Assembly: GCF_030246885.1 (NCBI RefSeq)
Contig: NZ_CP126739.1
Coordinates: 3,348,001 to 3,412,000, forward strand
Direction of reading: 5' to 3'
DNA: 64,000 nt
Source: Microbacterium sp. zg-B185
GTDB taxonomy: Bacteria; Actinomycetota; Actinomycetes; Actinomycetales; Microbacteriaceae
Positions within the stretch are counted from its first letter, which is position 1. The number at the start of each line of letters is the position of its first letter. Both the position numbers and the translations under genes were made by a program. Under the pieces are notes generated by a model. That model ran no database searches and was not told where the DNA came from. It saw only the letters and a program-made list of their open reading frames with translations. Shown here piece by piece: positions 1,921 through 29,269 of the stretch.

Positions 1921-2476
1921 GGAAGACGGTCTCCTTCTCGCCCTGCAGCCGGATGTCGTGCCGCAGGTACCCCTCCGGGGTGCGCGTTGCGATGAGCGTA
2001 GCGCGCTCCTCCGGCGTGAGCGAGGACAGCAGCGGGTCGGCATCGAGCAGCTCGGGGTTCTCGGGCAGGTAGATGCGCGTGTGCAGTTTGTCCGGCATCC
2101 CCCGCGCGAACACGACGACCGCGAAGAACGGCGCCTTGCCGTCGATCGGGCCGGGGTTGCGCGTCCAGAACTCGAAACCGCCCTCGTCCGTGGTCGCGGA
2201 GCGGCCGAACCCGGTGAAGGTGTGGTCATCGCGACGGCGCGAGCCACGGCCGCGCGGCACTCGGCCGTCGGAGTCGGCGCCGAAGATCTCCACGATCGCG
2301 TCGGGGATGGGCGCGCCGTCCCCGTCGTACAGCGTGCCGCCCAGCACGATCGCGCCGGCGCTGTGCGGGAAGGCGACCTCGTGCTTCTTGTCGTAGTCCA
2401 GGCCGAACGCGAAGAACGGCCCGATCGTCTGACCGGGGGTGGCCTGATGCGTCTTGGGCTGGGTGGGTGCGGGCAT
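1910..2476 (-). CDS. pcaG: Protocatechuate 3,4-dioxygenase alpha subunit
   Basis: The alpha subunit of the intradiol dioxygenase that opens protocatechuate between C3 and C4. It has 188 residues, normal for PcaG. The family opening is visible as TPGQTIGPFFAFGL near residue 13, and the beta-sandwich segment GTLYDGDGAPIPDAIVEIFG follows. As expected for the alpha subunit, it lacks the Tyr-Tyr-His-His iron ligands found in pcaH. The ATG at 2476 shares one base with the pcaH stop codon (TGATG), so the two subunits are coupled and probably made in equal amounts. Confidence 0.95.
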   Translation of the reverse strand: MPAPTQPKTHQATPGQTIGPFFAFGLDYDKKHEVAFPHSAGAIVLGGTLYDGDGAPIPDAIVEIFGADSDGRVPRGRGSRRRDDHTFTGFGRSATTDEGGFEFWTRNPGPIDGKAPFFAVVVFARGMPDKLHTRIYLPENPELLDADPLLSSLTPEERATLIATRTPEGYLRHDIRLQGEKETVFLAF

Positions 2477-3339
2477 CAGTGCTCTCCCTCGGGTTCGAAC
2501 CAGGTCGCGTCCGGGCCGTCGACGACGATGTCCCACCGGTAGCCCATCGAGAACTCCGGGACGGTGAGATCGTGGTCGTACGCGCCGATGAGGCGGTCGC
2601 GGTCGGCCTGGCGCGGGATGGTGTTGTAGATCGGGTCCAGGGCGAACAGCGGGTCGCCGGGGAAGTACATCTGCGTGATGATCCGCTGCGTGAACGCGCT
2701 GCCGAACACCGAGAAGTGGATGTGGGCGGGGCGCCACGCGTTGACGTGGTTCTTCCACGGGTACGGTCCCGGCTTGATGGTGGTGAACTTCCACTCGCCG
2801 TTGTCGTTGGTCACGATGCGTCCGGCGCCGGTGAAGTACGGGTCCAGCGGCGCGGGGTGCTGGTCGCGCTGGTGGATGTAGCGGCCCGCGGCGTTGGCCT
2901 GCCAGATCTCGATGAGCTGGTTGCGCACCGGTCGGCCCCACGAGTCCAGCAGGCGCCCTTCGACGGTGATGCGCTCGCCCTGCGGCTCGCCGCGGTGCTG
3001 CAGCGTCAGGTCGGCCTCGATGGCCGCGACGTCGCGCTGCCCGTAAGCCGGCGAGAACAGCTCGATGGTCTCGGGATCGACGAGCTTGAGGTCCTTGGTG
3101 GGGTGACGCAGCAGGCTGGAGCGATACGGCGGGAAGTCGTGCAGGGTGGCCCGCAGCTCCTCGCCGGACTCGTCGCGGCGCGCGTACTCGGCGTGCAGCT
3201 GTGCGATCTCTTCGTTGATCTGGCGCTGCGAGGGCATGTCGGCCGAGGCGAGCAGCGACTCGGGCGCCGCAGCGGTCGGTTCGATGATCACCGAGGACGA
3301 GAATGCCTCGCCAATCGGGTCCGGACGGGTGATGGTCAT
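2476..3339 (-). CDS. pcaH: Protocatechuate 3,4-dioxygenase beta subunit
   Basis: The catalytic subunit carrying the non-haem Fe(III). The four ligands of the intradiol family can be placed: Tyr154 in AAGRYIHQ, Tyr193 in GPYPWKN, and His206 and His208 in RPAHIHF. The protein has 287 residues, somewhat longer than the Pseudomonas form because of an N-terminal extension. The start ATG 3339 is preceded by AAGGAGACC. It is the first gene of pcaHGB-D/L, 85 bases downstream of an IclR gene on the same strand. A perfect 10-1-10 palindrome lies at the end of that IclR gene and may be its operator. Confidence 0.96.
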   Translation of the reverse strand: MTITRPDPIGEAFSSSVIIEPTAAAPESLLASADMPSQRQINEEIAQLHAEYARRDESGEELRATLHDFPPYRSSLLRHPTKDLKLVDPETIELFSPAYGQRDVAAIEADLTLQHRGEPQGERITVEGRLLDSWGRPVRNQLIEIWQANAAGRYIHQRDQHPAPLDPYFTGAGRIVTNDNGEWKFTTIKPGPYPWKNHVNAWRPAHIHFSVFGSAFTQRIITQMYFPGDPLFALDPIYNTIPRQADRDRLIGAYDHDLTVPEFSMGYRWDIVVDGPDATWFEPEGEH

Positions 3340-3415
3340 GGGGTCTCCTTCGACGCGCGCTCGTTCCGGAGCACGCAGATCAAGCGTCCCATCCGGCCGG
3401 ACCGCCGACCGCACC

Positions 3416-12353: not shown

Positions 12354-13016
12354 ATGTCGACGATCGCCGAGGACGAGGGCTCCGCCCCCGATACATCCGA
12401 ACAGCGGGTGACGGACATCATCCGCGGCGCGATCGTGCGGGGCGAGTACGCCCCCAACCAGCGACTGATCGAGGCCGATCTCAGCGATACCTTCGGGGCC
12501 AGCCGCGCGACGGTGCGCACGGCCCTGCTGGAGCTGGCCAACGAAGGACTGGTCGAGCGGCTCCCCAACCGGGGTTCCCGGGTCCGCGCGATCTCGGTCG
12601 ACGAGGCGATCGAGATCCTCGAGGTCCGCATCGGGGTGGAGGGACTGTGCTCCGCCAAGACCGCCGCCTCGGTCACCGACGACGAGATCCAGGAGTTCCT
12701 GCGCCTCCGCGAGGACCTGATCGCCGCGGTCGCCGACGGCGACCTCGTGGAGTACTCCCGGCTGAACCAGCGGCTGGACGAGCGCGTCCGCGTTCTGAGC
12801 AGACACGCGACAGCCGCCGAGGTGCTCGCCCGCCTGCACGCGCAGAGCGTGCGTCACCAGTTCAAGCTCTCGTCGCGTCCGCAGCGCGCGAAGGTCTCGG
12901 TGCTCGAGCACGCCGCGATCATCGATGCGATCGTCGCCCGCGACCCCGGAGCCGCGGAGCAGGCCGTGCGTGCGCACCTGCTGAGCGTCATCGGAGCCCT
13001 GCGCGAGATCGCCTGA
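12354..13016 (+). CDS. GntR-family (FCD) transcriptional regulator
   Basis: A 220-residue GntR regulator. The winged helix includes LIEADLSDTFGASRATVRTA around residues 38-57, then LPNRGSRVRAIS, typical of the family. The C-terminal helical FCD domain, which usually binds a small carboxylate, includes LRVHAQ-like and HAAIIDAIVARDPGAAEQAV segments. GAAGGAGACTCG precedes the ATG. It is divergent from the dehydrogenase at 11475-12260 and convergent with ligM1. Its most likely targets are itself and that dehydrogenase; control of ligM1 is possible. Confidence 0.88.
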   Translation: MSTIAEDEGSAPDTSEQRVTDIIRGAIVRGEYAPNQRLIEADLSDTFGASRATVRTALLELANEGLVERLPNRGSRVRAISVDEAIEILEVRIGVEGLCSAKTAASVTDDEIQEFLRLREDLIAAVADGDLVEYSRLNQRLDERVRVLSRHATAAEVLARLHAQSVRHQFKLSSRPQRAKVSVLEHAAIIDAIVARDPGAAEQAVRAHLLSVIGALREIA

Positions 13017-13168: not shown

Positions 13169-14521
13169 TCAGCTCTTGCGGTAGTTCTCCCGGGCGAATG
13201 CGGAGTACGGCGCCGGCTGCACGGTCGCGCGCATCGACACCTGCCGGTGCTTCTCGACCGCGGGCTTGTGCGAGTTCGGCTCCTCGCCCCAGATCACCTC
13301 GACCTCGGTGCCGGGAGTCGCGTACTCGTTGTCGATGCTCGCAAGCGAGACGAAGGCATGCTCGTTCGTGATGTAGCCCACGTCGTGCGAGATCCCCACG
13401 TCTCTGCCGTCGACGAGCACCCGGTCCAGCTGGTGCTGTCCGTACCGGGCCTTGGGGAAGTCGATGTACTTGACCGGCAGCCCCGGCTCCAGCAGCGACT
13501 GCGCAGCCGATGCGACGTCCTCCGGGTTCCAGACCAGCGTCACCTTCTGGCGCGTCTGCGCGGCGGCGTGGCGCTCGAGTGCCGCACGGCCGATGAAGTC
13601 GTGGTCGAAGGCGACGCTGCGGCCGTAGCCGATGTCGTAGGGCGTGATGTAGTAGTCCTCGATGTCCTCGGAGTTCAGGCTCCCGGCGAGCGACCCGGTG
13701 CGGGTGACCGGCAGCCACTCGCGGTACGCCTGCGTGCCCTCGCCGCTGAAGATCGCCGGAAGCGGCGACGGCACCCACGCCGACTCGAGGTTCGCCGAGG
13801 AGTACGCCTTGGATCCGACCAGGACCAGGTCCAGGTCGGCGCCGGCCGCGATCAGAGCCGCGCGCACCCGTTCGCCGTCGGCCCACGGGCCGAACAGCTC
13901 GAAGCCGGGCTGGCCCGCCATGCCGTGGCGCAGCGAGCGCACCTCGACGCCGTCGATCGTGAACGTCGTCATGCCGAAGAACCTCGTCGCGGGCACCTCG
14001 GCGCCGGTGACCTTCTCCATCAGCGCGAGCGCGTTCGGGCCCTGCAGCTCGTAGCGGTACAGCTTCGGGTCGCCCTCGCGGACGATCGAGCTGGCGTCGC
14101 GCTCGAAGGACACGTCATAGTCGCCGGTCTCGCCGTGGTACTGCACCCAGTCCAGCACCATGTGCCATCCGACCAGGTCGAACGACTGCTCGGCGAGGTA
14201 GAACAGGATGGCGTCGCCGATCAGGTAGCCCTCGTGGTTGACCGCGATGAACTGCTTGGCCTGGTCGATCTGGAATTTCGCGAAGCTGTTGACCCCGACA
14301 TCCGACAGGAGCCGGAGGGCGTCCGGACCGGTGATGAACAGGTCCGTCATGTGATGGGACTGATCCAGCAGCGCGACCGAGGTGCGCCAGGACTGCTGCT
14401 CGGAGCGCCAGTTGCTGAATTCGGGTGTCACCGGGAACACGGTGGGGCGCGCCTGTGCATTGCGCAGCAGGTCAACGGCACTGCCGGCGCGGGTGATGGC
14501 TTGCGCGAGTGACTCGGGCAT
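13169..14521 (-). CDS. LigM/DesA-type tetrahydrofolate-dependent aromatic O-demethylase (paralogue 1)
   Basis: A 450-residue GcvT-fold protein of the vanillate/syringate O-demethylase family, which moves the aryl O-methyl group to tetrahydrofolate. Family features shared with the two other copies here include [30 protein letters not shown], and GSKAYSSANLES. It is clearly the most divergent of the three, so it may have a different substrate (vanillate, 3-O-methylgallate or syringate). The ATG 14521 is preceded by AAGGAG. It is divergent from a LysR gene, with two TATGC-containing inverted repeats in the gap. The N-terminus PTVFPVTPEFSNWR matches the family start. Confidence 0.85.
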   Translation of the reverse strand: MPESLAQAITRAGSAVDLLRNAQARPTVFPVTPEFSNWRSEQQSWRTSVALLDQSHHMTDLFITGPDALRLLSDVGVNSFAKFQIDQAKQFIAVNHEGYLIGDAILFYLAEQSFDLVGWHMVLDWVQYHGETGDYDVSFERDASSIVREGDPKLYRYELQGPNALALMEKVTGAEVPATRFFGMTTFTIDGVEVRSLRHGMAGQPGFELFGPWADGERVRAALIAAGADLDLVLVGSKAYSSANLESAWVPSPLPAIFSGEGTQAYREWLPVTRTGSLAGSLNSEDIEDYYITPYDIGYGRSVAFDHDFIGRAALERHAAAQTRQKVTLVWNPEDVASAAQSLLEPGLPVKYIDFPKARYGQHQLDRVLVDGRDVGISHDVGYITNEHAFVSLASIDNEYATPGTEVEVIWGEEPNSHKPAVEKHRQVSMRATVQPAPYSAFARENYRKS

Positions 14522-14553
14522 GGAGACTCCTTCGTTCCTTGAGGCTTCCATGC

Positions 14554-14606
14554 TATGCATCAGCGCATATCGGACATACGATCTTGCATAAGCAGTGGTT
14601 ATGCAA
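14554..14606. promoter_or_regulatory. Two LysR-type operator sites between ligM1 and lysR
   Basis: Site 1 is TATGC-N6-GCATA (14554-14569). Site 2 is TTGCATAA-N7-TTATGCAA (14584-14606), a perfect 8-bp inverted repeat. Both share TATGCA half-sites and their centres are about 33 bases apart, as expected for the recognition and activation sites of a LysR regulator. Site 2 covers ATG 14601, which argues for a downstream lysR start. Confidence 0.65.
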
Positions 14607-14633
14607 GCGAAAGGATGCCTTACCCGGCGCCCG

Positions 14634-15581
14634 GTGGACCTCAACCTGATCCGAGTCTTCGTGGCGGTGTACGAGACGCGCAGCCTCACCACCGCTGCGG
14701 CGCGATTGTATGTGACGCAGCCGGCGGTGAGCCAGGCGCTGGGCCGGCTCCGACGGGACCTCAACGACCCCCTCTTCCGCCGGGTGGGACGCGCGATGGA
14801 ACCCACGCCGATGGCGGTCGGGCTGTTCCCCGGATTCCGGGACGGCATCGCCGGCATCGATCGCACGGTCGACGGCGCCATCGGATTCGACCCCGCCCGG
14901 TCGCGCCGCCGGTCGCGGATCGCCCTGTCGGAGCTCGGCGAGATCGGCTACTTCCCCTCCATCCTCCGTGCCGTCCGCTCCGCCGCGCCGCATCTGCGCG
15001 TGGAGGCGGTGCCGCTGGATGTCCAGGCGCTGCCGGACTGGCTCTCGCAGGGCACGATCGACCTGGCCGTCACGTCCTCCCCGGTGGCGGGCGGCTTCGA
15101 GCATGCTGTGCTCAAATCCCAGGCCTACGGCGTGCTCATGTCGCGCGATCATCCGCTGGCCGCCGCGACGGACGGCATCACCCTGGCCGACTACCTCGCC
15201 GCCGACCAGGTGGTCGTCGCGGGCGACTCCGGGCTGCCGCGGCTGGAGTCCGCATTCCGCAGGGCGGGCGCCGTGCTGCGCTCGGACGTCGTGCTCAACC
15301 ACTTCGCCTCGCTGCCGCCGCTGCTGGCGACCAGCCCGGACCTGCTGGCCACCGTGCCGGACACGATCGCCGCCGGCTGGGCGCAGAGCTGGCCGCTGGT
15401 GGTCCAGCCGCTGCCACTGGACATGCAGGCCGTGGAGGTGTGCCTCTACCGTCGCACGACCACCCAGCAGCTGGGCGCCCTGGACTGGCTCTACGAGACC
15501 GTCGAACGGGCCGTGCGCGGCACCCACGGCGAGTTCTTCGCGATCCACGGTGCGGCTCGCGCCGCCGCCCGTCCGTCCTGA
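14634..15581 (+). CDS. LysR-family regulator
   Basis: A LysR-type regulator of about 315 residues. The N-terminal helix-turn-helix reads LTTAAARLYVTQPAVSQALG after VDLNLIRVFVAVYE, and the periplasmic-binding-like effector domain follows. I chose GTG 14634 because family members usually begin with DLNLLRVF-like sequence and the upstream ATG 14601 lies inside a palindrome. No good Shine-Dalgarno sequence decides it, and ATG 14601 remains possible. It is divergent from ligM1 and upstream of the reductase-P450 pair. An aromatic acid effector is likely. Confidence 0.85.
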   Translation: MDLNLIRVFVAVYETRSLTTAAARLYVTQPAVSQALGRLRRDLNDPLFRRVGRAMEPTPMAVGLFPGFRDGIAGIDRTVDGAIGFDPARSRRRSRIALSELGEIGYFPSILRAVRSAAPHLRVEAVPLDVQALPDWLSQGTIDLAVTSSPVAGGFEHAVLKSQAYGVLMSRDHPLAAATDGITLADYLAADQVVVAGDSGLPRLESAFRRAGAVLRSDVVLNHFASLPPLLATSPDLLATVPDTIAAGWAQSWPLVVQPLPLDMQAVEVCLYRRTTTQQLGALDWLYETVERAVRGTHGEFFAIHGAARAAARPS

Positions 15582-15682: not shown

Positions 15683-16663
15683 ATGGTCGACACGCTGGCC
15701 ACGGCATCCGCTCGCCGCAACGCCGCCCACGGCGGCACGCTCGTGGTGACCGGCAGACGCGACGTGGCGCAGGATGTCGTCGAACTCACGCTGGCCCGCC
15801 CCGGCCGCGAGCGGCTGCCGGACTGGGCGCCGGGCGCGCACATCGACATCGTGCTCCCGGACGGCACCACCCGCCAGTACAGCCTGCTCGGCGACCGCTG
15901 GGATGCGCACAGCTTCACCATCGCGGTGCTGCGCGAACCCGTCGGCCGCGGCGGCTCCGAGCACATCCACGCGCAGCTCAGCGTCGGCGACACGGTCGGC
16001 TTCGGCGGCCCGCGCAACAACTTCCGCCTCTCCCCCGCTCCCGGCTACCTGTTCATCGCCGGCGGGATCGGCATCACTCCGCTGATGCCGATGATCCGCC
16101 AGGCCGAGCTGCTGGGCGACCCGTGGCGGCTGCTGTACCTGGGCCGCTCCCGCGCACGGCTGGCCTACCTCGACGAACTGGCGGGGTACGGCGAGCGGGT
16201 GACCGTCCACACCGCGGACGAGCGCGGCCGCGCGGTGATCGACGACTGGATGCCGGATCCCGCCGTCGCGCCCCTCGTCTACGCGTGCGGACCCGAGCGC
16301 CTTCTGGACGCGGTCGACCGGTGGGCGGCGCCGCTGGGCCGCCACCGCGTCCGCCTGGAACGGTTCACCGCGCGCGGCGATGTGGACCGCCCCACCACGG
16401 CCTTCGACGTGGAGGTGGCCAGCAGCGGCGCCGTCGTCACGGTGCAGAAAGACGAGTCGATCGTCGACGCGCTGCGCCGCATCGACGTGGACGTGATCAC
16501 CTCCTGCGCTCAGGGCGTCTGCGGAACGTGCGAGACCGGCGTGCTGGCCGGCGTCCCGGACCACCGCGACTCGCTGCTGAACGAGGCCGAGCGCGCGGAA
16601 TCGCGCTGCCTGTACCCGTGCATCTCCCGGGCGGTCTCGGACCGCCTGGTGCTGGACCTGTGA
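15683..16663 (+). CDS. Phthalate-family (VanB-like) oxygenase reductase, partner of the P450
   Basis: A 326-residue electron-transfer protein in the order flavin domain, NAD domain, plant-type [2Fe-2S] domain. The flavin segment contains RQYSLLGDRW, the nucleotide-binding part IAGGIGITPLMPMI, and the C-terminal cluster ligands are in CAQGVCGTCETG and a downstream CLYPC. VanB-like reductases usually serve Rieske oxygenases, but no oxygenase gene is nearby and the next gene is a P450 28 bases away. CYP199-type P450s in Rhodococcus use such a reductase. AAGGAG six bases before ATG 15683 supports the start. Confidence 0.88.
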   Translation: MVDTLATASARRNAAHGGTLVVTGRRDVAQDVVELTLARPGRERLPDWAPGAHIDIVLPDGTTRQYSLLGDRWDAHSFTIAVLREPVGRGGSEHIHAQLSVGDTVGFGGPRNNFRLSPAPGYLFIAGGIGITPLMPMIRQAELLGDPWRLLYLGRSRARLAYLDELAGYGERVTVHTADERGRAVIDDWMPDPAVAPLVYACGPERLLDAVDRWAAPLGRHRVRLERFTARGDVDRPTTAFDVEVASSGAVVTVQKDESIVDALRRIDVDVITSCAQGVCGTCETGVLAGVPDHRDSLLNEAERAESRCLYPCISRAVSDRLVLDL

Positions 16664-16691
16664 ACGACCGACCGAATCACGAAGGAAACCC

Positions 16692-17900
16692 ATGAGCATC
16701 GTCGAGTCCCCGAGCACGCCGGATGCGGCATCCATCGATCCGTTCGATCTGGAGTTCCTGCGCGATCCGCTGCCGCACCACGCGGTGCTGCGCGACGCCG
16801 GACCCGTGGTCCGGCTCGAGAAGTACGGTGTGTACGCGATGGCGCGGTACGACGAGGTGCACGCCGCCCTCGTGGACTGGCAGAACTTCCAGTCGGCGGC
16901 CGGTGTCGGCCTGTCCAACTTCCGTCACGAGAAGCCGTGGCGGCCGCCGAGCGTGCTGCTGGAGGCCGACCCGCCGCGCCATGACGCGCCCCGCGCCGTG
17001 GTGGCGCCGCTGCTGACCACCCGGCGCCTGCGCGATCTGGAGCAGAGCTGGCGAGCGGATGCCGCGACCGTCGTGGCGGCGGTCCTCGATCGCGGCGACG
17101 AGTTCGACGCGGTGACGGATCTGGCCGAGGTGTTCCCACTGCGGGTCTTCCCGGATGCGGTCGGCATCGGCACCGAGGGCCGCGAGAACCTGCTGCCCTA
17201 CGGGGACTTCGCCTTCAACGCGTTCGGCCCCCCGAACGAGCTCGTCACCGGCGCCGCGCCGCATATGCCCCCGGTCACCGAGTGGATCGGCCGGCAGTGC
17301 CTGCGCGAGAACCTCACCGACGACGGGTTCGGCGCGCAGATCTGGGCGGCCGCAGATCGCGGCGAGATCTCCCCCGAGCACGCCCCGATGATCGTCCGCT
17401 CGCTGCTGACGGCCGGCGTGGACACCACCGTGACCGGCATCGCGGCCATCGTGCACGCCCTGGCGCACAGCCCGGGCTCGGTCGCGCGGCTGCGCGCGGA
17501 CCGTTCGCTGACGCGCACGGCATTCGAGGAGGCGGTGCGCCTGGAGTCCCCGGTGCAGACGTTCTTCCGCACCGCGACCCGCGATCTGCGCGTCGGCGAC
17601 GTCGACATCGCCGACGGCGAGAAGATCCTGATGTTCCTCGGGGCGGCCAACCGCGACCCGCGGCGGTGGGCGGATCCCGACACGTTCGACCTGGACCGGG
17701 ATCCCTCCGGACACGTGGCCTTCGGCATGGGCATCCACCAGTGCGTGGGCCAGCACATCGCCCGCCTCGAGGCGATCTGCGTCCTGGACGCGCTGCTGGA
17801 CCGCATCGTCGAGGTCGAGCCGGCCGGCCCGGAGCGCCGTCACCTCAACAACACGCTGCGCGGCTGGGAGAGCATGCCGGTGCGCGTGCGGCGCGGCTGA
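16692..17900 (+). CDS. CYP199-like cytochrome P450, probable para-methoxybenzoate O-demethylase
   Basis: A soluble bacterial P450 of 402 residues. The haem loop is FGMGIHQCVGQHIAR with the thiolate at Cys351, and the I-helix oxygen-binding site is LLTAGVDTTVTG. The segment AGVGLSNFRHEKPWRPPSVL closely resembles CYP199A enzymes, which demethylate 4-methoxybenzoate and veratrate to 4-hydroxybenzoate and vanillate, releasing formaldehyde. It follows its reductase directly. Family assignment is from memory of the CYP199 sequence, so a close relative with another para-substituted benzoate as substrate is possible. It converges on ligM2, with a perfect palindrome as terminator between them. Confidence 0.82.
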   Translation: MSIVESPSTPDAASIDPFDLEFLRDPLPHHAVLRDAGPVVRLEKYGVYAMARYDEVHAALVDWQNFQSAAGVGLSNFRHEKPWRPPSVLLEADPPRHDAPRAVVAPLLTTRRLRDLEQSWRADAATVVAAVLDRGDEFDAVTDLAEVFPLRVFPDAVGIGTEGRENLLPYGDFAFNAFGPPNELVTGAAPHMPPVTEWIGRQCLRENLTDDGFGAQIWAAADRGEISPEHAPMIVRSLLTAGVDTTVTGIAAIVHALAHSPGSVARLRADRSLTRTAFEEAVRLESPVQTFFRTATRDLRVGDVDIADGEKILMFLGAANRDPRRWADPDTFDLDRDPSGHVAFGMGIHQCVGQHIARLEAICVLDALLDRIVEVEPAGPERRHLNNTLRGWESMPVRVRRG

Positions 17901-17965: not shown

Positions 17966-19450
<1,485 letters not shown>

Positions 19451-19594
19451 TCAGGGTCACCAAAATTGTAACCAGAATCTTGACCATTGCGCTAGGGGTG
19501 TGGTTCTCTGGGTTCACGGGCCGGGCCGCGCTGCCCGCGGAGTTCCATGCCCGCCGTCCGCCCTCGTGCGGAGACCATCGAGTCAGGAGTTCCT

Positions 19595-20350
19595 TTGGCT
19601 GAGACAACCCGCACGCTTCTTGTGGTCAGCGCCCACGCCGGCGATTTCGTCTGGCGCGCGGGCGGCGCCATCGCCGCCGCCACGCTGCGCGGCGAGCGAG
19701 CAGTGGTGGTCTGCGTGTCCTATGGAGAGCGCGGCGAATCGGCCAGCCAGTGGCTGCAGGGCAAGTCGCTCGATGAGATCAAGGCCATCCGCCGGGAAGA
19801 GGCCACCGCTGCGGCAGCCGCGCTGGGCGCCGAGATCGAGTTCCTCGACGCGGGCGACTACCCTCTGCTCGAATCGACCGAGACCGTCGAGAAGCTCGTG
19901 GACGTCTTCCGCCGTGTGCAGCCCACCGTGGTGCTGACGCACCCGCTGGCCGATCCGTACAACGGCGACCACCCCGCGGCAGCGCGCATGGCGCTGCAGG
20001 CCCGCGTGCTGGCGCAGGCGATCGGTGTGGCCAACTCCGATGGCACCTTCCCGACCACGGACGAGATCATCGGCGCTCCGCCGGTCTTCTTCTTCGAACC
20101 GCACCAGCCCGAGCAGTCCGATTTCAAGCCGAACGTGCTCCTGGACATCACGGCCGCGTTCCCGCTGAAGCAGAAGGCGATGGAGTGCCTGCCTGCCCAG
20201 AAGCACATGTGGGAGTACTACACCTCGCTCGCGGTGCGCCGCGGCGTGCAGGTCAAGCGCAACGCCGGCCCGAACCTGGGGCTGCCGGTGGACACGATGG
20301 GCGAGGCGTACGTGCGCTACTACCCCGCGGTCACGGACATCCTCGAATGA
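19595..20350 (+). CDS. galB: 4-oxalomesaconate hydratase GalB (PIG-L family)
   Basis: A 251-residue LmbE/PIG-L-fold hydrolase-like protein, the type that hydrates 4-oxalomesaconate in gallate catabolism. The metal motif reads SAHAGDFVWRAGG where typical PIG-L deacetylases have AHPDD. The GalB of Pseudomonas putida has the same unusual form. The second metal element is THPLADPYNGDHPAA. I start it at TTG 19595 because AGGAG lies five bases upstream; the in-frame GTG at 19547 has no such site. It overlaps galC by ATGA and heads the operon galB-galC-galD-dioxygenase. Confidence 0.87.
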   Translation: MAETTRTLLVVSAHAGDFVWRAGGAIAAATLRGERAVVVCVSYGERGESASQWLQGKSLDEIKAIRREEATAAAAALGAEIEFLDAGDYPLLESTETVEKLVDVFRRVQPTVVLTHPLADPYNGDHPAAARMALQARVLAQAIGVANSDGTFPTTDEIIGAPPVFFFEPHQPEQSDFKPNVLLDITAAFPLKQKAMECLPAQKHMWEYYTSLAVRRGVQVKRNAGPNLGLPVDTMGEAYVRYYPAVTDILE

Positions 20351-21051
20351 GCGCCGGTCACGTCGTCGTCACCGACATCGCCCGGGCGGATGCCGCGACC
20401 GTCGACGCGCTCGCGGCGCTGGGTTCGGCGACCGTCCACGAGGCGATGGGGCGCATCGGCTACGTCGGCCCGCGCATCCGTCCCATCCAGCAGGACATGT
20501 CCATCTCCGGCAGCGCGATCACCGTCCTGACCGCCCCCGGCGACAACCTCATGGTGCACGCCGCGATCGAGCAGGCACGGGCCGGCGACGTCATCGTGGT
20601 CGTGCCCACGACCGATTCCCCGTATGGGTTCATCGGCGAGCTGATGGCCACGCAGATGCAGGAGCGCGGCGTGCGCGCCTACGTCACCTCCGGCGGCGTC
20701 CGCGACACCGGTGAACTGCGCGCGATGGGCTTCCCGGTGTGGACGGCGCACATCAGCTCCGAGGGCACAGTCAAGGACACGGCCGGCTCGGTCAATGTCC
20801 CCGTGGTGCTCGGCGGAGTCGTGGTCAACCCGGGCGACATCGTGGTCGCCGACGACGACGGCGTGACGATCGTGCCGCGCGCCCGGGCTGCACACACCCT
20901 CGAGGCCGCGCAGGCGCGCGCCGCCAAAGAGGCGGCGACCCGGCTTCGGTATCAGGCCGGCGAGATCTCCCTCGACGTCAGCTCACTGCGTCCGATCCTG
21001 GCCGATCTGGGCGTCCAGTACATCAGTCAGGCGGAATTCACCCGTGACTGA
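20347..21051 (+). CDS. galC: 4-carboxy-4-hydroxy-2-oxoadipate aldolase
   Basis: A 234-residue protein of the HMG/CHA aldolase (RraA-like) family, which splits 4-carboxy-4-hydroxy-2-oxoadipate into pyruvate and oxaloacetate. The family blocks are ATVHEAMGRIGYVGPRIRPI near residues 27-46, a metal/substrate loop around GFIGELMATQM, and GVRAYVTSGGVRDTGELRAM with the conserved Gly-x-Arg-Asp. The ATG overlaps the galB stop, and galD begins inside its last codons. LigK/GalC also act in protocatechuate 4,5-cleavage, but no LigC or LigI is present here. Confidence 0.9.
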   Translation: MSAGHVVVTDIARADAATVDALAALGSATVHEAMGRIGYVGPRIRPIQQDMSISGSAITVLTAPGDNLMVHAAIEQARAGDVIVVVPTTDSPYGFIGELMATQMQERGVRAYVTSGGVRDTGELRAMGFPVWTAHISSEGTVKDTAGSVNVPVVLGGVVVNPGDIVVADDDGVTIVPRARAAHTLEAAQARAAKEAATRLRYQAGEISLDVSSLRPILADLGVQYISQAEFTRD

Positions 21052-22144
21052 GGACGTGCGCGACCCCTCCGGCGACGGCATCCGGTGCATGCTCATGCGC
21101 GGAGGCACGTCGAAGGGCGCGTACTTCCTCGCCGAGGACCTGCCGGTGCAGCCCGCGGAGCGTGACAGCATCCTGCTGCGCGTGATGGGCAGCCCCGACC
21201 CCACCCAGATCGACGGTGTCGGGGGTGCGCATCCGCTGACCAGCAAGGTCGCCATCGTGTCACCCTCCGCCGAGTCCGACGTCGACGTGGACTACCTCTT
21301 CCTGCAGGTCGGGGTCGATCAGCCCACCGTGAGTGACGCGCAGACGTGCGGCAACCTGCTGGCCGGCGTCGGTGCGTTCGCCGTGGAGCGCGGACTCGTC
21401 ACGCCCGGCGAGGAGACCACGACGGTGCGCATCCGGCTGGTCAACACCGGTGACCTGGCCATCGAGACCTTCCCGACACCGCGTGGGCGCGTCGATTACG
21501 ACGGCGCCGCTTCGGGCACCGAGACGGCCATCGACGGCGTGCCGGGCACCGCTGCCGGTATCGAGATCCAGCTCAGCGCCGGTCCCGACGCGCGGCTGCT
21601 GCCCTCCGGCAACGTCACCGACGTGTTCGACGGTCACCGTGCCACGCTCATCGACAACGGAATGCCGGTCGTGCTGCTGCGCGCCGACGAGTTCGGCGTC
21701 GCCGGCACCGAGACCCCGGCGGAACTGGAGGAGCGCGCCGATCTGAAGGACGCGCTCGAGAGCATCCGCCTGCAGGCCGGTCCGGCGATGGGGCTGGGCG
21801 ATGTCGCCGGCGCCACGGTGCCGAAGATGTTCCTCCTCTCACCCGCGCAGCAGGGCGGTGCCGTGTCGACCCGGGCGTTCATCCCTGCGCGCGTGCACAC
21901 CTCGATCGGTGTGCTGATGGCCGCCTCCGTCGCCGCCGGCATCCGCATCCCCGGCGCGGTCGGCGCGGACATCGCGGCGCTCACCGACTCCGGCCCGGAC
22001 GCCATCGAACACCCCGGCGGCACCTTCCCCGCCCGCGTGCAGGTGCAGCTCGGCGATGACGACCAGTGGCGCGCCACATCGATCTCCACCCGCACGGCCC
22101 GCAAGATCTTCGACGGCGTGGTCTATCCACGACCACGCCTGTAA
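21044..22144 (+). CDS. galD: 4-oxalomesaconate tautomerase GalD (PrpF family)
   Basis: A 366-residue PrpF/GalD-type isomerase with the diaminopimelate-epimerase-like fold. It converts the keto/enol forms of 4-oxalomesaconate formed after gallate cleavage so that GalB can act. The family opening IRCMLMRGGTSKGAYFLAED and the block DAQTCGNLLAGVGAFAVERG, with the catalytic Cys, are present. The GTG start overlaps galC by eight bases. PrpF proteins in the methylcitrate cycle look similar, but the galB and galC neighbours decide the assignment. Confidence 0.88.
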   Translation: MTEDVRDPSGDGIRCMLMRGGTSKGAYFLAEDLPVQPAERDSILLRVMGSPDPTQIDGVGGAHPLTSKVAIVSPSAESDVDVDYLFLQVGVDQPTVSDAQTCGNLLAGVGAFAVERGLVTPGEETTTVRIRLVNTGDLAIETFPTPRGRVDYDGAASGTETAIDGVPGTAAGIEIQLSAGPDARLLPSGNVTDVFDGHRATLIDNGMPVVLLRADEFGVAGTETPAELEERADLKDALESIRLQAGPAMGLGDVAGATVPKMFLLSPAQQGGAVSTRAFIPARVHTSIGVLMAASVAAGIRIPGAVGADIAALTDSGPDAIEHPGGTFPARVQVQLGDDDQWRATSISTRTARKIFDGVVYPRPRL

Positions 22145-22167
22145 CACCCGCCAGAGAGGACCGCAGG

Positions 22168-23130
22168 ATGACCGATTTCACCGCGTTCGACGTCGCCCAC
22201 ATCGGCAGCGTCGAGCTGCTCACGCCCAAGTTCGAGGAGAGCAAGGCGTTCTTCACCGACCTGCTCGCGATGCGCGTCGTCGCCGAGGAGGGCGACTCCG
22301 TCTTCCTGCGCACCTGGGACGAATACGAGCTGTACACCATCAAGCTCACGGCATCGGATGCCGCGGGTGTCGGACGCACGACGTTCCGTGCCTCCAGCGA
22401 GGATGCGCTGCAGCGGCGCGTCGCCGCGATCACCGAGACGGGCCTGGGCGGCAGCTGGGTCGACGGCGAGGTCGGCACCGGCCCCACGTTCGAGTTCACC
22501 GACCCCGACGGCCACGCGATGGCGATCTACTACGAGACCGAGCGCTACGTCGCCACCGATGACAAGCCGGCCCTGAAGAACCAGGCATCGCGGTTCCCGG
22601 GACGCGGCGTCAACGCCCGCCGCCTGGACCACATCAACTACCTGGCCAAGGACGTCGTCGCCAACGGCGAGTTCATCGCCAAAGCGCTCGGCGGTCGCGA
22701 GAGCGAACGCATCAAGCTGGACGCCGGCGGCTACGCGGCATGGTGGTTCCACTTCAACAACAAGTCCTACGACGTCGTCTACTCCGACGACTGGACCCGT
22801 CACGGCAACCGCCTGCACCACATCGCCTTCGCACCCGACACGCGCGAGGACATCCTCAAGGCCGCCGACATCTTCCTCGAGAACGGCATCTACATCGAGT
22901 CGGGTCCGCACAAGCACGCGATCAACCAGACGTTCTTCCTGTACGTCTGGGAGCCCGGCGGCAACCGCATCGAATTCGCCAACGCGGGCGCGCGCCTGCT
23001 GCTGGACCCGGACCAGCCCGTCGTGGAGTGGACCCAGGAAGAGCGCAAGAAGGGCCAGGCGTGGGGCATGAAGACGATCGAGAGCTTCCACACGCACGGC
23101 ACCCCGGTCGTGGACGTCGTCGCCGACTGA
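22168..23130 (+). CDS. Type I (VOC) extradiol ring-cleavage dioxygenase, candidate gallate dioxygenase
   Basis: A 320-residue two-domain vicinal-oxygen-chelate protein related to catechol 2,3-dioxygenase. The C-terminal domain holds the 2-His-1-carboxylate iron site: His155 in RLDHINYLA, His217/218 in RLHHIAFAPD, and Glu269 in GGNRIEF. His250 in GPHKHAI matches the acid-base His of XylE. It starts 24 bases after galD in the same operon, with AGAGAGG upstream of ATG 22168. Known gallate and protocatechuate 4,5-dioxygenases have the unrelated LigB fold, so a VOC enzyme supplying 4-oxalomesaconate would be unusual. Its substrate is inferred only from position; a catechol or methylgallate is possible. 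Confidence 0.85.
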   Translation: MTDFTAFDVAHIGSVELLTPKFEESKAFFTDLLAMRVVAEEGDSVFLRTWDEYELYTIKLTASDAAGVGRTTFRASSEDALQRRVAAITETGLGGSWVDGEVGTGPTFEFTDPDGHAMAIYYETERYVATDDKPALKNQASRFPGRGVNARRLDHINYLAKDVVANGEFIAKALGGRESERIKLDAGGYAAWWFHFNNKSYDVVYSDDWTRHGNRLHHIAFAPDTREDILKAADIFLENGIYIESGPHKHAINQTFFLYVWEPGGNRIEFANAGARLLLDPDQPVVEWTQEERKKGQAWGMKTIESFHTHGTPVVDVVAD

Positions 23131-23270: not shown

Positions 23271-24797
23271 ATGACGGACACCATCGGCGCGGACTCCGCG
23301 ACCGCAGTCGCCGGCGAGGCCGGCACGCAAATCAAGACGGGCCTGTACATCGGCGGACAGGAGCGGCACACCGCCGCCACGCTCGATGTCGCCGACCCGG
23401 GCAAGCCCGGCGTGATCGTGGGGCGCGCAGCCTCCGCCACGCCACAGGACGTCGACGACGCCGTCGCCGCGGCCAAGGCCGCCTACCCGGCCTGGTCCGC
23501 GCTTTCCGCGCCGGAGCGGGCCGAGAAGATGCGCGCCGCCCTGGAAGGGATCGCCGACGCACGTGACGCGGATGCGGCGATCCTCTCGCAGGAGAACGGA
23601 AAGATCCGGTTCGAGTCGTGGGTGGATTCCCTGGTGTTCGAGATCCGGTGGAACCTCGCCCTGATGCTCGCCGACGAGGTGGGCACCGGCAAGGTCCTCC
23701 CGGTCGTTCCCGGCATCCCGGTGGAGACCACCGTCTCGTACCAGTCCCTCGGTGTGGTCACCCTGATCGTGCCGTTCAACTGGCCGATCGCCATCCTGGG
23801 TGCGGCTCTCCCGCACGCGCTGCTGGCCGGCAACACCGCGATCGTCAAGCCGCCGCCCTCCACGCCCTTGGCGCTGACCCGCGTCGTGCAGCGGATCGCC
23901 GAGAAGCTCCCCGCCGGCGTGCTGAACGTCGTCACCGGCAAGGACGAGAACATGTCCGGCCTGATCTCGAACACCGACATCGCCAAGGTCTGCTTCACCG
24001 GCAGCGTCAACGGCGGCAAGCGCATCATGGAGATGGCATCCAAGTCCCTCACCCGGGTGACGCTCGAACTCGGCGGGAACGACGCGGCGATCTTCCTCGA
24101 GGACGCGATCCTCGACGATGCCCACCTGGACCGCATCTACGCCGCCGTGTTCGACACGACCGGGCAGATCTGCATGAACGCCAAGCGCCTGTACGTGCAC
24201 CGCTCACGGCTCGATGAGCTGGTCGCAGGGCTCTCCGCGCGCCTGGACAAGGCCGTGATCGGCTACGGACTGGACGAGGGCACCACAATGGGTCCACTGC
24301 ACCAGAGCGCCCAGAAGGCGTTCGTGGAGGACATCATCCAGGAGGCCAAGGATGCCGGCGCCGACGTGCGCGAGTTCGGCGAGCTCCCCGGTGGGGATCT
24401 GGACGGCGGCAACTTCCTGCGCCCGGCCATCGTCGTGGACCCCGACCCCGCGCTGCGCGTGGTCACGCAGGAGCAGTTCGGCCCGGTCATCCCGATCCTC
24501 CCGTTCGACACCGAGGACGAGGCGATCGCGGCGGCCAACGACACGTGGGCCGGGCTGTGCGGCTCGGTGTGGACGGCCGATGTCGACTCGGCCAACCGCG
24601 TCGGCGGACAGCTGGCGTGCGGCTACGTGTGGGTCAACGACCACGGCGCGACGCGCCTGGACCTGCGGGCGCCGTTCGGCGGCATGAAGCAGTCCGGGTT
24701 CGGTCGCGAGCAGGGCATCGAGGGCATCCGCGCCTTCCAGGACACCCGTTCCATCGCCCACATCGACGCCGCGGCCCTGGCCGCGCAAGCACACTGA
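23271..24797 (+). CDS. Aromatic aldehyde dehydrogenase (vanillin-dehydrogenase-like), copy 1
   Basis: A 508-residue NAD(P)-dependent aldehyde dehydrogenase. The catalytic Cys lies in TTGQICMNAKRLYVH, and the general base Glu in VTLELGGNDAAIF. The glycine-rich cofactor loop is FTGSVNGGKRIMEMA. It is nearly identical over long stretches to the gene at 46518-48005, and the last 150 bases of coding sequence are almost the same in DNA. Oxidation of vanillin, syringaldehyde or 4-hydroxybenzaldehyde is the likely role given the neighbours. It begins 140 bases after the dioxygenase and overlaps the MFS gene by TGATG. Confidence 0.88.
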   Translation: MTDTIGADSATAVAGEAGTQIKTGLYIGGQERHTAATLDVADPGKPGVIVGRAASATPQDVDDAVAAAKAAYPAWSALSAPERAEKMRAALEGIADARDADAAILSQENGKIRFESWVDSLVFEIRWNLALMLADEVGTGKVLPVVPGIPVETTVSYQSLGVVTLIVPFNWPIAILGAALPHALLAGNTAIVKPPPSTPLALTRVVQRIAEKLPAGVLNVVTGKDENMSGLISNTDIAKVCFTGSVNGGKRIMEMASKSLTRVTLELGGNDAAIFLEDAILDDAHLDRIYAAVFDTTGQICMNAKRLYVHRSRLDELVAGLSARLDKAVIGYGLDEGTTMGPLHQSAQKAFVEDIIQEAKDAGADVREFGELPGGDLDGGNFLRPAIVVDPDPALRVVTQEQFGPVIPILPFDTEDEAIAAANDTWAGLCGSVWTADVDSANRVGGQLACGYVWVNDHGATRLDLRAPFGGMKQSGFGREQGIEGIRAFQDTRSIAHIDAAALAAQAH

Positions 24798-26829: not shown

Positions 26830-26870
26830 CCAATCGTCAATCATTGACATTCTCAATGATCGACGATTGG
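26830..26870. promoter_or_regulatory. MarR/CouR-type operator
   Basis: Arms of 18 bases (26830-26847 starting CCAATCGTC, and 26853-26870 ending GACGATTGG) with one mismatch surround a five-base spacer. The site lies between the MarR gene and the SDR gene and would cover both promoters. Confidence 0.75.
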
Positions 26871-26896
26871 ATGGGCGTAGTCACAAAGGAGTTCGC

Positions 26897-27838
26897 ATGT
26901 CTCTGCACGCCGCCCCCCTCGCGGGCAAGGTCGCCATCGTCACCGGATCCGGTCGGGGCCTCGGCTTCGCCTACGCCGCGGAGCTCGCCCGGCAGGGCGC
27001 GTCCGTCGTGATCAACGATGTGGATGCCGCCACCGCCGATGCCGCTGTCGCCGCCATCGTCGCGGACGGCGGCAAGGCCGTCGCGGTCATCGCCCCGGTC
27101 GGACCCACCGAGACCGCGCAGCAGCTGGTGGCCGCCGCCGTTGAGAGCTTCGGTCGGCTCGACATCCTCGTCACCAACGCCGGCGTGCTGCGCGATACCG
27201 TGCTCTGGAAGATGAGCGACGACGACTTCGACACGGTCATCAACGTGCACCTCCGCGGCACATTCACCTGCACGCGCGAAGCGGTGACGTACATGCGCGA
27301 TAACGGCATCCGCGGCCGCATCATCGCGATCGGCTCACCTACGGGCCAGCGCGGCAACTTCGGCCAGACCAACTACGCGGCCGCCAAGGCCGGCATCGTC
27401 GGGATGGTGCGCACCTGGGCGCTCGAGCTCAAGCGTGCCGGCATCACCGCGAACGCGGTCATCCCGGTAGCCGCCACCGCGATGACCGCCACGGTGCCCT
27501 ACTTCGCCGCGGCCGTCGAAGCCGACGCCAAGGGCGAGGCGATGCCCGCGTTCTTCCGTCACGACCTGGGCTTCGGAACGTCCGACGACGTCGCAGGCCT
27601 CATCGCCTATCTCGCATCGGATGCCGCGGCCGACGTCACCGGCCAGGCCATCGGCGTCGGCGGCGACCGGCTCCAGCTGTGGTCGCACCCGGAGCCGGTC
27701 GTCACGGCATACCGGGACGGCGGCTGGACCTATGACGCGCTCCAGGAGTCCTTCGCCGGGGAACTCGGCGGGGCACTGGAAACGGTCGGCGAACAGTTCC
27801 CGCCGCTGCCCGCCGACCTGCAGCGCCCCCCGGCGTAG
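26897..27838 (+). CDS. couN: SDR 3-hydroxyacyl-CoA dehydrogenase of hydroxycinnamate degradation
   Basis: A 313-residue short-chain dehydrogenase. The N-terminal cofactor motif is VTGSGRGLGFAYA (T-G-x3-G-x-G), and the active site is Ser in IAIGSPTGQ with YAAAK. It is about 60 residues longer than a simple SDR; the tail resembles the dehydrogenase unit of peroxisomal multifunctional enzyme 2, which is specific for (3R)-hydroxyacyl-CoA. That fits the MaoC hydratase encoded next door. It would oxidise the hydroxyphenyl-3-hydroxypropionyl-CoA to the beta-keto form. AAAGGAG precedes ATG 26897. It heads the operon controlled by the divergent MarR. Confidence 0.78.
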   Translation: MSLHAAPLAGKVAIVTGSGRGLGFAYAAELARQGASVVINDVDAATADAAVAAIVADGGKAVAVIAPVGPTETAQQLVAAAVESFGRLDILVTNAGVLRDTVLWKMSDDDFDTVINVHLRGTFTCTREAVTYMRDNGIRGRIIAIGSPTGQRGNFGQTNYAAAKAGIVGMVRTWALELKRAGITANAVIPVAATAMTATVPYFAAAVEADAKGEAMPAFFRHDLGFGTSDDVAGLIAYLASDAAADVTGQAIGVGGDRLQLWSHPEPVVTAYRDGGWTYDALQESFAGELGGALETVGEQFPPLPADLQRPPA

Positions 27839-27847
27839 GGGGGCGTC

Positions 27848-28765
27848 ATGACGCGCTACGAGCCTGCGATCGACGTCGACGCGCTGACCGCGATCGACGT
27901 CCATGTGCACATCGAGATCGGTGCGCACGGTCACGCGTCGCTGCCGCCTGCGCTGGTGGAAGCCGCGTCGAAGTACTTCAGCACCGACGGCCCCCGGCCG
28001 GACCTGGACAGCGTCGCGGCGTATTACCGCGACCGGAAGATGGCCGCGGTCGTCTTCACCGTCGATGCGACGACCCGTCTCGGGCACTCGCCGATCTCGA
28101 GCACCGATATCGCGGAGGGGGCCGCGCGCAACAACGACGTGCTGATCCCGTTCGGCTCCGTCGATCCGCTCCAGGGAGCCGCCGCGGTCGCCGCGGCACG
28201 GCGCCTGGTGGAGGAGAACGGGGTTCGGGGCTTCAAATTCCACCCGACCGTGCAGGGCTTCGACCCGAGCGACGAGCAGCATTACCCGCTGTATGCGGCC
28301 ATCCAGGAGCTCGGAGCGGTGGCGTTGTTCCACACCGGCCAGACCGGGATCGGCGCGGGCATGCCGGGCGGGTACGGGTTGAAGCTGGGACTGTCCAACC
28401 CCATCCTGCTGGACCCGATCGCGGCGGATTTCCCCGAGCTGCAGATCATCATGGCCCATCCGTCGGTGCCGTGGCAGGACGAGGCCATCTCGGTGGCAAC
28501 GCACAAGCACAACACGTGGATCGACCTGTCCGGGTGGAGCCCCAAGTACTTCCCGGAGTCGCTGGTGCGCGCCGCCAACTCGTTCCTCAAGAGCCGCGTG
28601 CTGTTCGGATCCGACTTCCCTATGCTGACTCCGGATCGCTGGATCGGCGACGCCGGAAAGACCGCACTGAAGCCCGAAGTGATGCCCGGGATCATGCGCG
28701 ACAACGCCGCACGACTGCTGGGCCTGCACAGCGAGACGAAACGCCCGACCAAGGAGCACCCATGA
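27848..28765 (+). CDS. couO: Amidohydrolase-2 family beta-ketoacyl-CoA hydrolase (CouO/PhdC-like)
   Basis: A 305-residue ACMSD-type amidohydrolase barrel. Metal-binding positions are visible in DVHVH near residue 18, FHTG, MAHPS and FGSDFP. In the actinobacterial coumarate pathway an enzyme of this family cleaves 4-hydroxyphenyl-beta-ketoacyl-CoA to 4-hydroxybenzoate and acetyl-CoA. The surrounding SDR, hydratase, ligase and MarR genes match that pathway, so I assign the role by family plus context. It starts ten bases after the SDR gene and overlaps the hydratase start by ATGA. Confidence 0.8.
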   Translation: MTRYEPAIDVDALTAIDVHVHIEIGAHGHASLPPALVEAASKYFSTDGPRPDLDSVAAYYRDRKMAAVVFTVDATTRLGHSPISSTDIAEGAARNNDVLIPFGSVDPLQGAAAVAAARRLVEENGVRGFKFHPTVQGFDPSDEQHYPLYAAIQELGAVALFHTGQTGIGAGMPGGYGLKLGLSNPILLDPIAADFPELQIIMAHPSVPWQDEAISVATHKHNTWIDLSGWSPKYFPESLVRAANSFLKSRVLFGSDFPMLTPDRWIGDAGKTALKPEVMPGIMRDNAARLLGLHSETKRPTKEHP

Positions 28766-29214
28766 CCACCTCCATCGCATACGCCGATGTCGCCGGCCTC
28801 GCCGGCACCGATCTCGGTTTCACCGACTGGCTGGAGATGACCCAGGAGCGCGTGAACACGTTCGCCGATGCCACCGGCGACCACCAGTGGATCCACGTCG
28901 ACCCGGAACGCGCGAAGAGCGGGCCGTTCGGCGCGCCCATCGCGCACGGCTTCCTGACCCTCTCCCTCGCGGTCACCTTCTGGACCGAGCTGCTGGATGT
29001 GGACGGCGTGACGACGAAGGTCAACTACGGACTGGACAAGGTGCGCTTCGTCTCTCCCGTCCCGGTGGGTGCGCGCGTGCGCATGGGCGCGGTCATCGCC
29101 GAGGTCACCGAGATCGCCGGCGGCTACCAGCTGACCGTCGATCAGACCATCGAGATCGATGGCGCCGCCAAGCCGGCCGTCGTGGCCCGCGGCCTCTACC
29201 GCTTCTACGGGTAG
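28762..29214 (+). CDS. MaoC-like hydroxycinnamoyl-CoA hydratase
   Basis: A 150-residue hot-dog-fold protein with the complete (R)-hydratase signature ATGDHQWIHVDPERA followed by FGAPIAHG, including the Asp and His dyad. It should add water to the side-chain double bond of p-coumaroyl-, feruloyl- or sinapoyl-CoA. The equivalent step elsewhere is often assigned to a crotonase-fold enzyme, so the MaoC fold here is a variation. It is paired with an SDR of the (3R)-specific type. AAGGAG sits before ATG 28762, which overlaps the couO stop. Confidence 0.82.
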   Translation: MTTSIAYADVAGLAGTDLGFTDWLEMTQERVNTFADATGDHQWIHVDPERAKSGPFGAPIAHGFLTLSLAVTFWTELLDVDGVTTKVNYGLDKVRFVSPVPVGARVRMGAVIAEVTEIAGGYQLTVDQTIEIDGAAKPAVVARGLYRFYG

Positions 29215-29269
29215 CCGGCCCCGGCATCGCGCCGACGCCCACCGTTCCGACTCGACGAAGAGACACCCG

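Follow-up and report, generated by a model that had tools for sequence, protein, structure and literature searches.

Microbacterium sp. zg-B185 carries, on contig NZ_CP126739.1 (NCBI RefSeq assembly GCF_030246885.1), an operon in which three genes of the gallate lower pathway, galB, galC and galD, are followed by a gene for a VOC-fold extradiol dioxygenase. The present study concerns this dioxygenase, hereafter the VOC protein, and its operon. Both lie in a stretch of 64,000 nucleotides (nt) (contig positions 3,348,001 to 3,412,000, forward strand), which was analyzed as a whole and is called the window; coordinates count from its first nucleotide. The operon comprises the following genes.

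19595..20350, + strand: galB, 4-oxalomesaconate hydratase-type PIG-L/LmbE protein (PF02585, 87.3 bits)
20347..21051, + strand: galC, 4-carboxy-4-hydroxy-2-oxoadipate aldolase (NF006731, 294.4 bits; cut-off 179)
21044..22144, + strand: galD, 4-oxalomesaconate tautomerase of the PrpF fold (NF033377, 437.9 bits; PF04303, 291.9 bits)
22168..23130, + strand: extradiol dioxygenase of the VOC fold, a proposed gallate dioxygenase of type I (PF00903; TIGR03211, 301 bits)

The hydratase, aldolase and tautomerase genes of the GalBCD lower pathway stand together. galB starts at TTG 19595 or, alternatively, at ATG 19547; no NCBIfam model exceeds its cut-off for this gene, which is identified by Pfam and gene order only, and galD falls ~2 bits short of the NF033377 cut-off of 440. 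galC begins at ATG 20347, overlapping galB by 4 nt (ATGA), and galD begins at GTG 21044, overlapping galC by 8 nt. The VOC gene starts at ATG 22168, 23 nt past the galD stop codon. A preliminary description of this DNA had reported both the mutual overlap of the three gal genes and a complete VOC extradiol dioxygenase gene shortly after galD, and the coordinates bear it out. Its wording "fused in one operon" holds in the sense of adjacent, overlapping genes; a protein fusion of the gal genes and the VOC gene was rejected because the genes merely overlap.

Residue signature of the VOC protein

The VOC protein has the two-domain VOC fold of type I extradiol dioxygenases. Its metal triad, previously given as His155, His217/218 and Glu269, resolves to His155, His218 and Glu269 and is present in 41/41 aligned rows and in 223/223 rows of the clade described below. 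The second-sphere residues His246 and Tyr255 of XylE correspond to His250 and Tyr259 in all 41 rows, and Tyr259 is kept in 222 of the 223 clade rows. The conserved catalytic histidine of type I enzymes (His199 in XylE, His200 in homoprotocatechuate 2,3-dioxygenase, HPCD) is replaced by Tyr201. Tyr201 occurs in 223/223 clade rows, a count that holds by construction since rows were assigned to the clade on the basis of Tyr201 and Arg276, whereas 121 relatives have histidine. The single tree branch is not a product of that definition: the Tyr201/Arg276 rows make up one side of a branch (60/60, support 92). The clade also carries an added arginine-bearing insertion, NAGAR, whose arginine is Arg276 in the VOC protein. 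One locus (L080) was excluded from the alignments on account of a stop codon inside its match.

The score of 301 bits against the catechol 2,3-dioxygenase (C23O) model TIGR03211 lies below the curated cut-off of 320.2, and the VOC protein is not a C23O in the strict sense. The earlier label "catechol-2,3-dioxygenase-type" thus stands for a VOC extradiol enzyme and fails for an ordinary C23O, given the tyrosine in place of histidine and the sub-threshold score. AphC of Rhodococcus RHA1 (3lm4, 7q2a) and XylE, two C23Os, share 37% and 25% identity with the VOC protein, respectively; they differ from it at the catalytic histidine and in the added NAGAR insertion with Arg276. HPCD/MndD likewise has His200 where the VOC protein has Tyr201. 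The carboxylate-binding residues of HPCD, which we take to be Arg243 and Arg293, align with Ser245 and Gly296. Lys249 was considered as a carboxylate ligand equivalent to HPCD Arg243 and rejected, both because Arg243 aligns with Ser245 and because ordinary relatives also have lysine or arginine at position 249.

PDB entry 9wgj (52% identity, homologous over 310 residues) shares the tyrosine at position 201 with the VOC protein, but it lacks the NAGAR arginine and falls just outside the VOC clade on a long branch. Its sequence is VOC-type, yet it is deposited under the intradiol name "catechol 1,2-dioxygenase". We found no paper on this entry; it is missing from the Z-ranked structure list, which has no bearing on its fold.

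Search for other ring-cleaving enzymes in the genome

The genome assembly consists of one contig (3,568,984 bases) and has a completeness rating of 100%. The preliminary description had seen no LigB-fold dioxygenase in the window and had proposed looking for one in the rest of the genome. The search with PF02900 gave 0 matches in the whole genome, extending the earlier observation, and a hidden LigB enzyme elsewhere was set aside on this result; the same search was positive in 4 of 14 named controls (Escherichia coli and three more) and, within the family, in 33 of 149 genomes. Four further C23O-like proteins (30-42% identity) are encoded in the genome, all with histidine at position 201, and the nearest of their genes lies ~52 kb from the operon.

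Alternation of VOC and LigB enzymes beside galD in Microbacteriaceae

Among the 149 genomes sampled from a group that we read as the Microbacteriaceae, galD was counted at a score of at least 398 bits, which retained 17 genomes and omitted 5 of 22 (at most 310 bits; two of them fragments). Nine of the 17 have a VOC homologue, six have a LigB-type enzyme and two have neither. All nine VOC homologues (58-100% identity, that of the window included) lie within ~170 nt of the galD match, and the six LigB-type genes (PF02900, 226-243 bits) lie 2.3-2.5 kb from galD. In the other Microbacteriaceae genomes, no VOC protein of more than 43% identity was found among the matches at E 1e-60 or better. The association of VOC with galD has a hypergeometric probability of 3e-10, with kinship ignored. 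LigB matches are absent from seven of the nine VOC genomes; in the remaining two, G033 and G040, a single match (98 and 147 bits) lies on a separate contig.

A neighboring PF00775 (pcaHG-type) pair is present in 9/9 VOC genomes versus 0/6 LigB-type genomes; among the latter, one genome (G106) has two matches 69 kb apart, two (G076 and G055) have one each and three have none. The simplest reading is that the LigB clusters serve the protocatechuate 4,5-route, while the VOC clusters serve gallate, with protocatechuate passing through the 3,4-route. In the two genomes that have galD with neither enzyme (G078 and G110), VOC (E 1e-60), PF02900 and PF00775 all gave no match. Their galB/galD clusters (L099 and L100) also encode an ABC transporter and an oxidoreductase of the DUF1932 type and may import a pathway intermediate.

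Conservation of the VOC-galD linkage across genomes

In a wider comparison, 80 VOC loci were examined, these being the best 80 of 94, with genes placed by tblastn. galD is present in 61/80 loci, galB, galC and galD together in 55/80, and a LigM/DesA-family match in 61/80. Among the 50 loci whose VOC protein is at least 65% identical, 46 have galD within 3 kb, which indicates that the VOC-galD linkage is not due to chance, and 39 have a LigM-family gene divergently placed next to galB. Of the remaining 30 loci, 13 have galD this close. The loci that lack galD, 19 in all, belong to Microvirga (13), Sinomonas (three), Tersicoccus, Nitratireductor and an Anaerolineae metagenome-assembled genome (one each). 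When 18 of these 19 genomes (all except that of L013) were searched for GalD, 11 had galD over the cut-off elsewhere, two had weak matches only and five had none. Many gal loci (L003, L121-L131 and others) also encode, close to galBCD, an oxidoreductase of the DUF1932/6-phosphogluconate dehydrogenase-like kind (49/80 loci, many of the matches weak).

A second group, which we read as the Rhizobiaceae, was sampled with 199 genomes, of which 81 have galD at 400 bits or more (3 of 84 were omitted, at most 343 bits). LigB distances were determined for 47 of ~150 matches (those of at least 131 bits plus three on galD contigs); the remainder were inspected by eye, and none lay within 10 kb of galD. 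A VOC protein of 50-59% identity occurs in 48 genomes, 47 of which have galD at 400 bits or more, and in 39 of the 48 it lies within 10 kb of galD; the one genome of the 48 that lacks so strong a galD (G320, L113) has galB and galC beside its VOC gene. Within 10 kb of galD, the 81 genomes have VOC only (35), LigB only (8), both (4) or neither (34), and eight of the 34 carry a VOC gene elsewhere. Five "neither" loci were read: four match galD alone (45-46%) and one (L138) has galB, galC and galD, and we take most of these five to belong to another pathway. Sixteen compact clusters (galB, VOC, galC, galD) were read, of which two have a LigM match in the stretch covered. Among three distant, unlinked VOC copies (L109-L111), one is accompanied by LigM and DUF1932 genes, one by DUF1932 only and one by no gene that was sought.

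In the two-enzyme clusters L106 (G177), L107 (G211) and L108 (G266), which are three of the four Rhizobiaceae clusters with both genes, and in L001, from a Roseomonas plasmid, a single-domain LigB gene adjoins an alpha/beta hydrolase gene in 4/4 cases. The LigB enzyme of these clusters could represent an added 3-O-methylgallate branch, although the reverse division of labor is conceivable.

A homologue on a walnut Agrobacterium plasmid stands in the order PIG-L, VOC, galC, galD, tannase (PF07519, 437.9 bits). The tannase is at least 99% identical on 19 plasmid records, which are near-copies and are counted as one case. A tannase match of 27-30% was also seen in 6/80 genome loci, all Microbacterium, and Pfam did not confirm it.

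Genes and control elements around the operon

The window contains further genes and one control-like element around the operon.

2476-3414, - strand (open reading frame): pcaH, protocatechuate 3,4-dioxygenase (TIGR02422, 337.5 bits; cut-off 296.4; PF00775)
2144-2353, - strand: pcaG-like, partial second PF00775 match, gene ends not fixed
10248-11366: methyltetrahydropteroyltriglutamate-homocysteine methyltransferase-type gene (551 bits; cut-off 313)
12354-13016: GntR-type regulator (105 bits to the GntR model, below cut-off)
13169..14881, - strand: desA-like, syringate O-demethylase (best NCBIfam match NF047633, 588.8 bits, below the cut-off of 800)
15683..16663, + strand: ferredoxin/FAD reductase (BenC-type match, 70 bits, far below cut-off; start codon not fixed)
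16692..17900, + strand: cytochrome P450 (PF00067, 87.8 bits)
17966..19429, - strand: ligM, tetrahydrofolate-dependent vanillate/3-O-methylgallate O-demethylase (NF047885, 927.8 bits; cut-off 580)
19465..19485, + strand: conserved promoter/operator-like element in the ligM-galB gap: degenerate ATTGTnnACAAT, then TTGACC
23271..24797, + strand: aldehyde dehydrogenase, downstream of the VOC gene (PF00171, 405.6 bits)

The genes around the operon form a layout for vanillate and syringate. ligM is divergent from galB. The desA-like gene is also under the cut-off for NF047885 (515.1 bits; cut-off 580), and the first ~120 residues of its reading frame lie outside the family match. PF00775 matches at two places within 2144..3414 on the - strand (190.7 and 31 bits), and a pcaB-like gene scores below its family cut-off. 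The aldehyde dehydrogenase gene, 140 nt after the VOC gene, possibly belongs to the same transcript and perhaps oxidizes vanillin or syringaldehyde; a match of at least 60% identity occurs in 16/80 VOC loci. The methionine-synthase-like methyltransferase, which several lineages also have close to the VOC gene (29/80 loci, including Microvirga among L054-L071), perhaps recycles the methyl group released by O-demethylation.

The P450 and reductase genes lie between both demethylase genes (15683-17900). The P450 is a possible aromatic O-demethylase with the reductase as its possible partner, and the pair may demethylate guaiacol- or syringol-type compounds. Genes for a short-chain dehydrogenase, an amidohydrolase, a MaoC-like dehydratase and an AMP-binding (acyl-CoA ligase-type) protein follow in a row at 26867-30778 and probably form a separate catabolic operon.

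The palindrome TTGTnnACAA is found in 21 of 38 ligM-galB gaps (37 loci and the window) versus 0.005 expected per 200 bases; these upstream sequences are related, and the count therefore reflects conservation rather than independent evidence. The window copy (19465-19478) is degenerate and directly precedes TTGACC. The GntR-type regulator could bind this palindrome.

Discussion

We propose, with a probability of roughly 0.8 and on the strength of comparative sequence evidence, that the VOC protein is a type I (VOC-fold) gallate dioxygenase that yields 4-oxalomesaconate and is the non-homologous counterpart of GalA and DesB. GalA of Pseudomonas putida, which works with GalBCD, and DesB of Sphingobium SYK-6 would share their reaction and product with the VOC protein, and DesB also shares its pathway partners LigM and DesA with the window. 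However, GalA and DesB are LigB-type, whereas the window protein has the VOC fold and no PF02900 match. Published accounts assign gallate dioxygenases to the LigB superfamily (PMC4250580), class DesB as a type II extradiol enzyme (PMC3962378) and describe how DesA and LigM of SYK-6 make gallate from syringate for cleavage by DesB (PMC6888825).

Gene order, a genome free of LigB matches, conservation, alternation with LigB and the residue signature are all observed. Gallate is indicated as the substrate by the co-occurrence with galD, the LigB alternation, the separate protocatechuate 3,4-dioxygenase, the LigM/DesA-type demethylases and the tannase-linked homologue. The same evidence supports the suggestion, put forward conditionally in the preliminary description, that the VOC enzyme takes the place of gallate dioxygenase without being homologous to it, with its activity a prediction. 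We infer the substrate, regiochemistry and product, as well as the roles of Tyr201 and Arg276.

How would such an enzyme supply the GalBCD pathway? Syringate and 3-O-methylgallate would be converted to gallate by the DesA-like and LigM demethylases. Gallate would then chelate the metal held by His155, His218 and Glu269 via two neighboring hydroxyls, and the cleaved bond would lead to the carbon that bears the third hydroxyl. Regarded as a catechol, gallate is 3-hydroxy-5-carboxycatechol, and a C23O-like cleavage between the chelating C2 and C3 would give a carboxylic acid rather than an aldehyde or ketone. Because this acid would be 4-oxalomesaconate, the substrate of GalD, the pathway would require no dehydrogenase, in keeping with the many clusters that have none. 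GalD, GalB and GalC would convert 4-oxalomesaconate to pyruvate and oxaloacetate. We lean slightly towards a broader proposal, in which an undescribed, gallate-dedicated VOC branch of Actinomycetota and Alphaproteobacteria replaces the LigB type, tyrosine takes the place of the acid-base histidine, proton transfer is shared between this tyrosine and the third hydroxyl of the substrate, and the NAGAR arginine anchors the carboxylate.

Does the VOC protein act on a relative of gallate instead? It is improbable that it is a protocatechuate 4,5-dioxygenase whose semialdehyde product is oxidized towards 4-oxalomesaconate by the aldehyde dehydrogenase. The gene for the latter does lie downstream in the window, and PraA, which we take to belong to the VOC family, performs an extradiol cleavage of a carboxylated catechol resembling the proposed reaction, at a different bond. 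The literature identifies PraA of Paenibacillus sp. JJ-1b as an extradiol protocatechuate 2,3-dioxygenase (PMC13254512) and routes the protocatechuate 4,5-pathway through 4-oxalomesaconate as well (PMC6888825). However, a pcaHG-type pair is present in 9/9 VOC-type Microbacteriaceae genomes, that of the window included, and in 2/2 Neorhizobium genomes tested; the aldehyde dehydrogenase (at least 60% identity) is confined to the 16 loci noted above; and the tannase and the DesA-like/LigM genes indicate gallate over protocatechuate. A role as a protocatechuate enzyme was set aside given the protocatechuate 3,4-dioxygenase genes. In other bacteria, according to a published account (PMC12481942), PcaHG itself can turn a small amount of gallate into pyrone dicarboxylate; pyrone dicarboxylate is not a substrate of GalD.

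Cleavage of 3-O-methylgallate in place of gallate, marginally less probable still, would accord with the LigM/DesA-family matches in 61/80 loci and with the 3-O-methylgallate branch that the SYK-6 pathway includes (PMC6888825), but LigM would strip the methyl group before such cleavage. In addition, the walnut plasmid cluster combines a tannase with no LigM match within the 19 kb examined, a LigM match is missing from the examined stretch of 14/16 compact Rhizobiaceae clusters, and in 3/3 two-enzyme clusters read it is LigB that adjoins the alpha/beta hydrolase, which might remove a methyl ester. Least probable of all is a 2,3-dioxygenase of catechol, 3-methoxycatechol or pyrogallol that acts on P450 products and follows galD incidentally. 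C23O is the best NCBIfam family of the VOC protein, and the P450 and reductase genes lie 4-7 kb upstream. Nevertheless, the VOC-galD link is kept in both Actinomycetota and Alphaproteobacteria while a P450 relative occurs in only 6/80 loci, and the VOC clade departs from the 121 His-type relatives precisely at the catalytic histidine.

Several observations weigh against a gallate dioxygenase function of the VOC protein. Tyr201 sits where the studied type I enzymes have an important residue, and the closest sequence with a solved structure (9wgj, 52%) bears the name catechol 1,2-dioxygenase. Where the VOC gene is unlinked to galD, seven of the 18 genomes searched lack GalD over the cut-off (five lack any match), and the VOC-GalD link is therefore strong but not absolute. 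VOC and LigB genes both lie within 10 kb of galD in 4/81 Rhizobiaceae galD genomes, and a Roseomonas plasmid (L001) holds both in one cluster. Another 34 of the 81 have neither enzyme nearby, so that the presence of galD is no sure sign of a gallate dioxygenase. LigM stands beside only one of the three distant Rhizobiaceae VOC copies, and the pathway genes sought are wholly absent from another.

We found no paper on a VOC gallate dioxygenase in the open-access literature, with preprints and most subscription journals outside the scope of the search. Public records label the relatives of the VOC protein "catechol 2,3-dioxygenase" or "VOC family protein", and under such labels Microbacterium, Arthrobacter and Neorhizobium would seem to lack a step of the gallate pathway. 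Gallic acid is a building block of plant tannin and lignin, and gallate is the point at which the breakdown of tannins meets that of syringyl lignin. If the proposed function is correct, the VOC protein would close this apparent pathway gap in the three genera and would add another case in which one ring cleavage has evolved in two folds. It would also provide a natural His-to-Tyr variant with which to test the long-studied role of that residue and a new part for the conversion of lignin-derived syringate.

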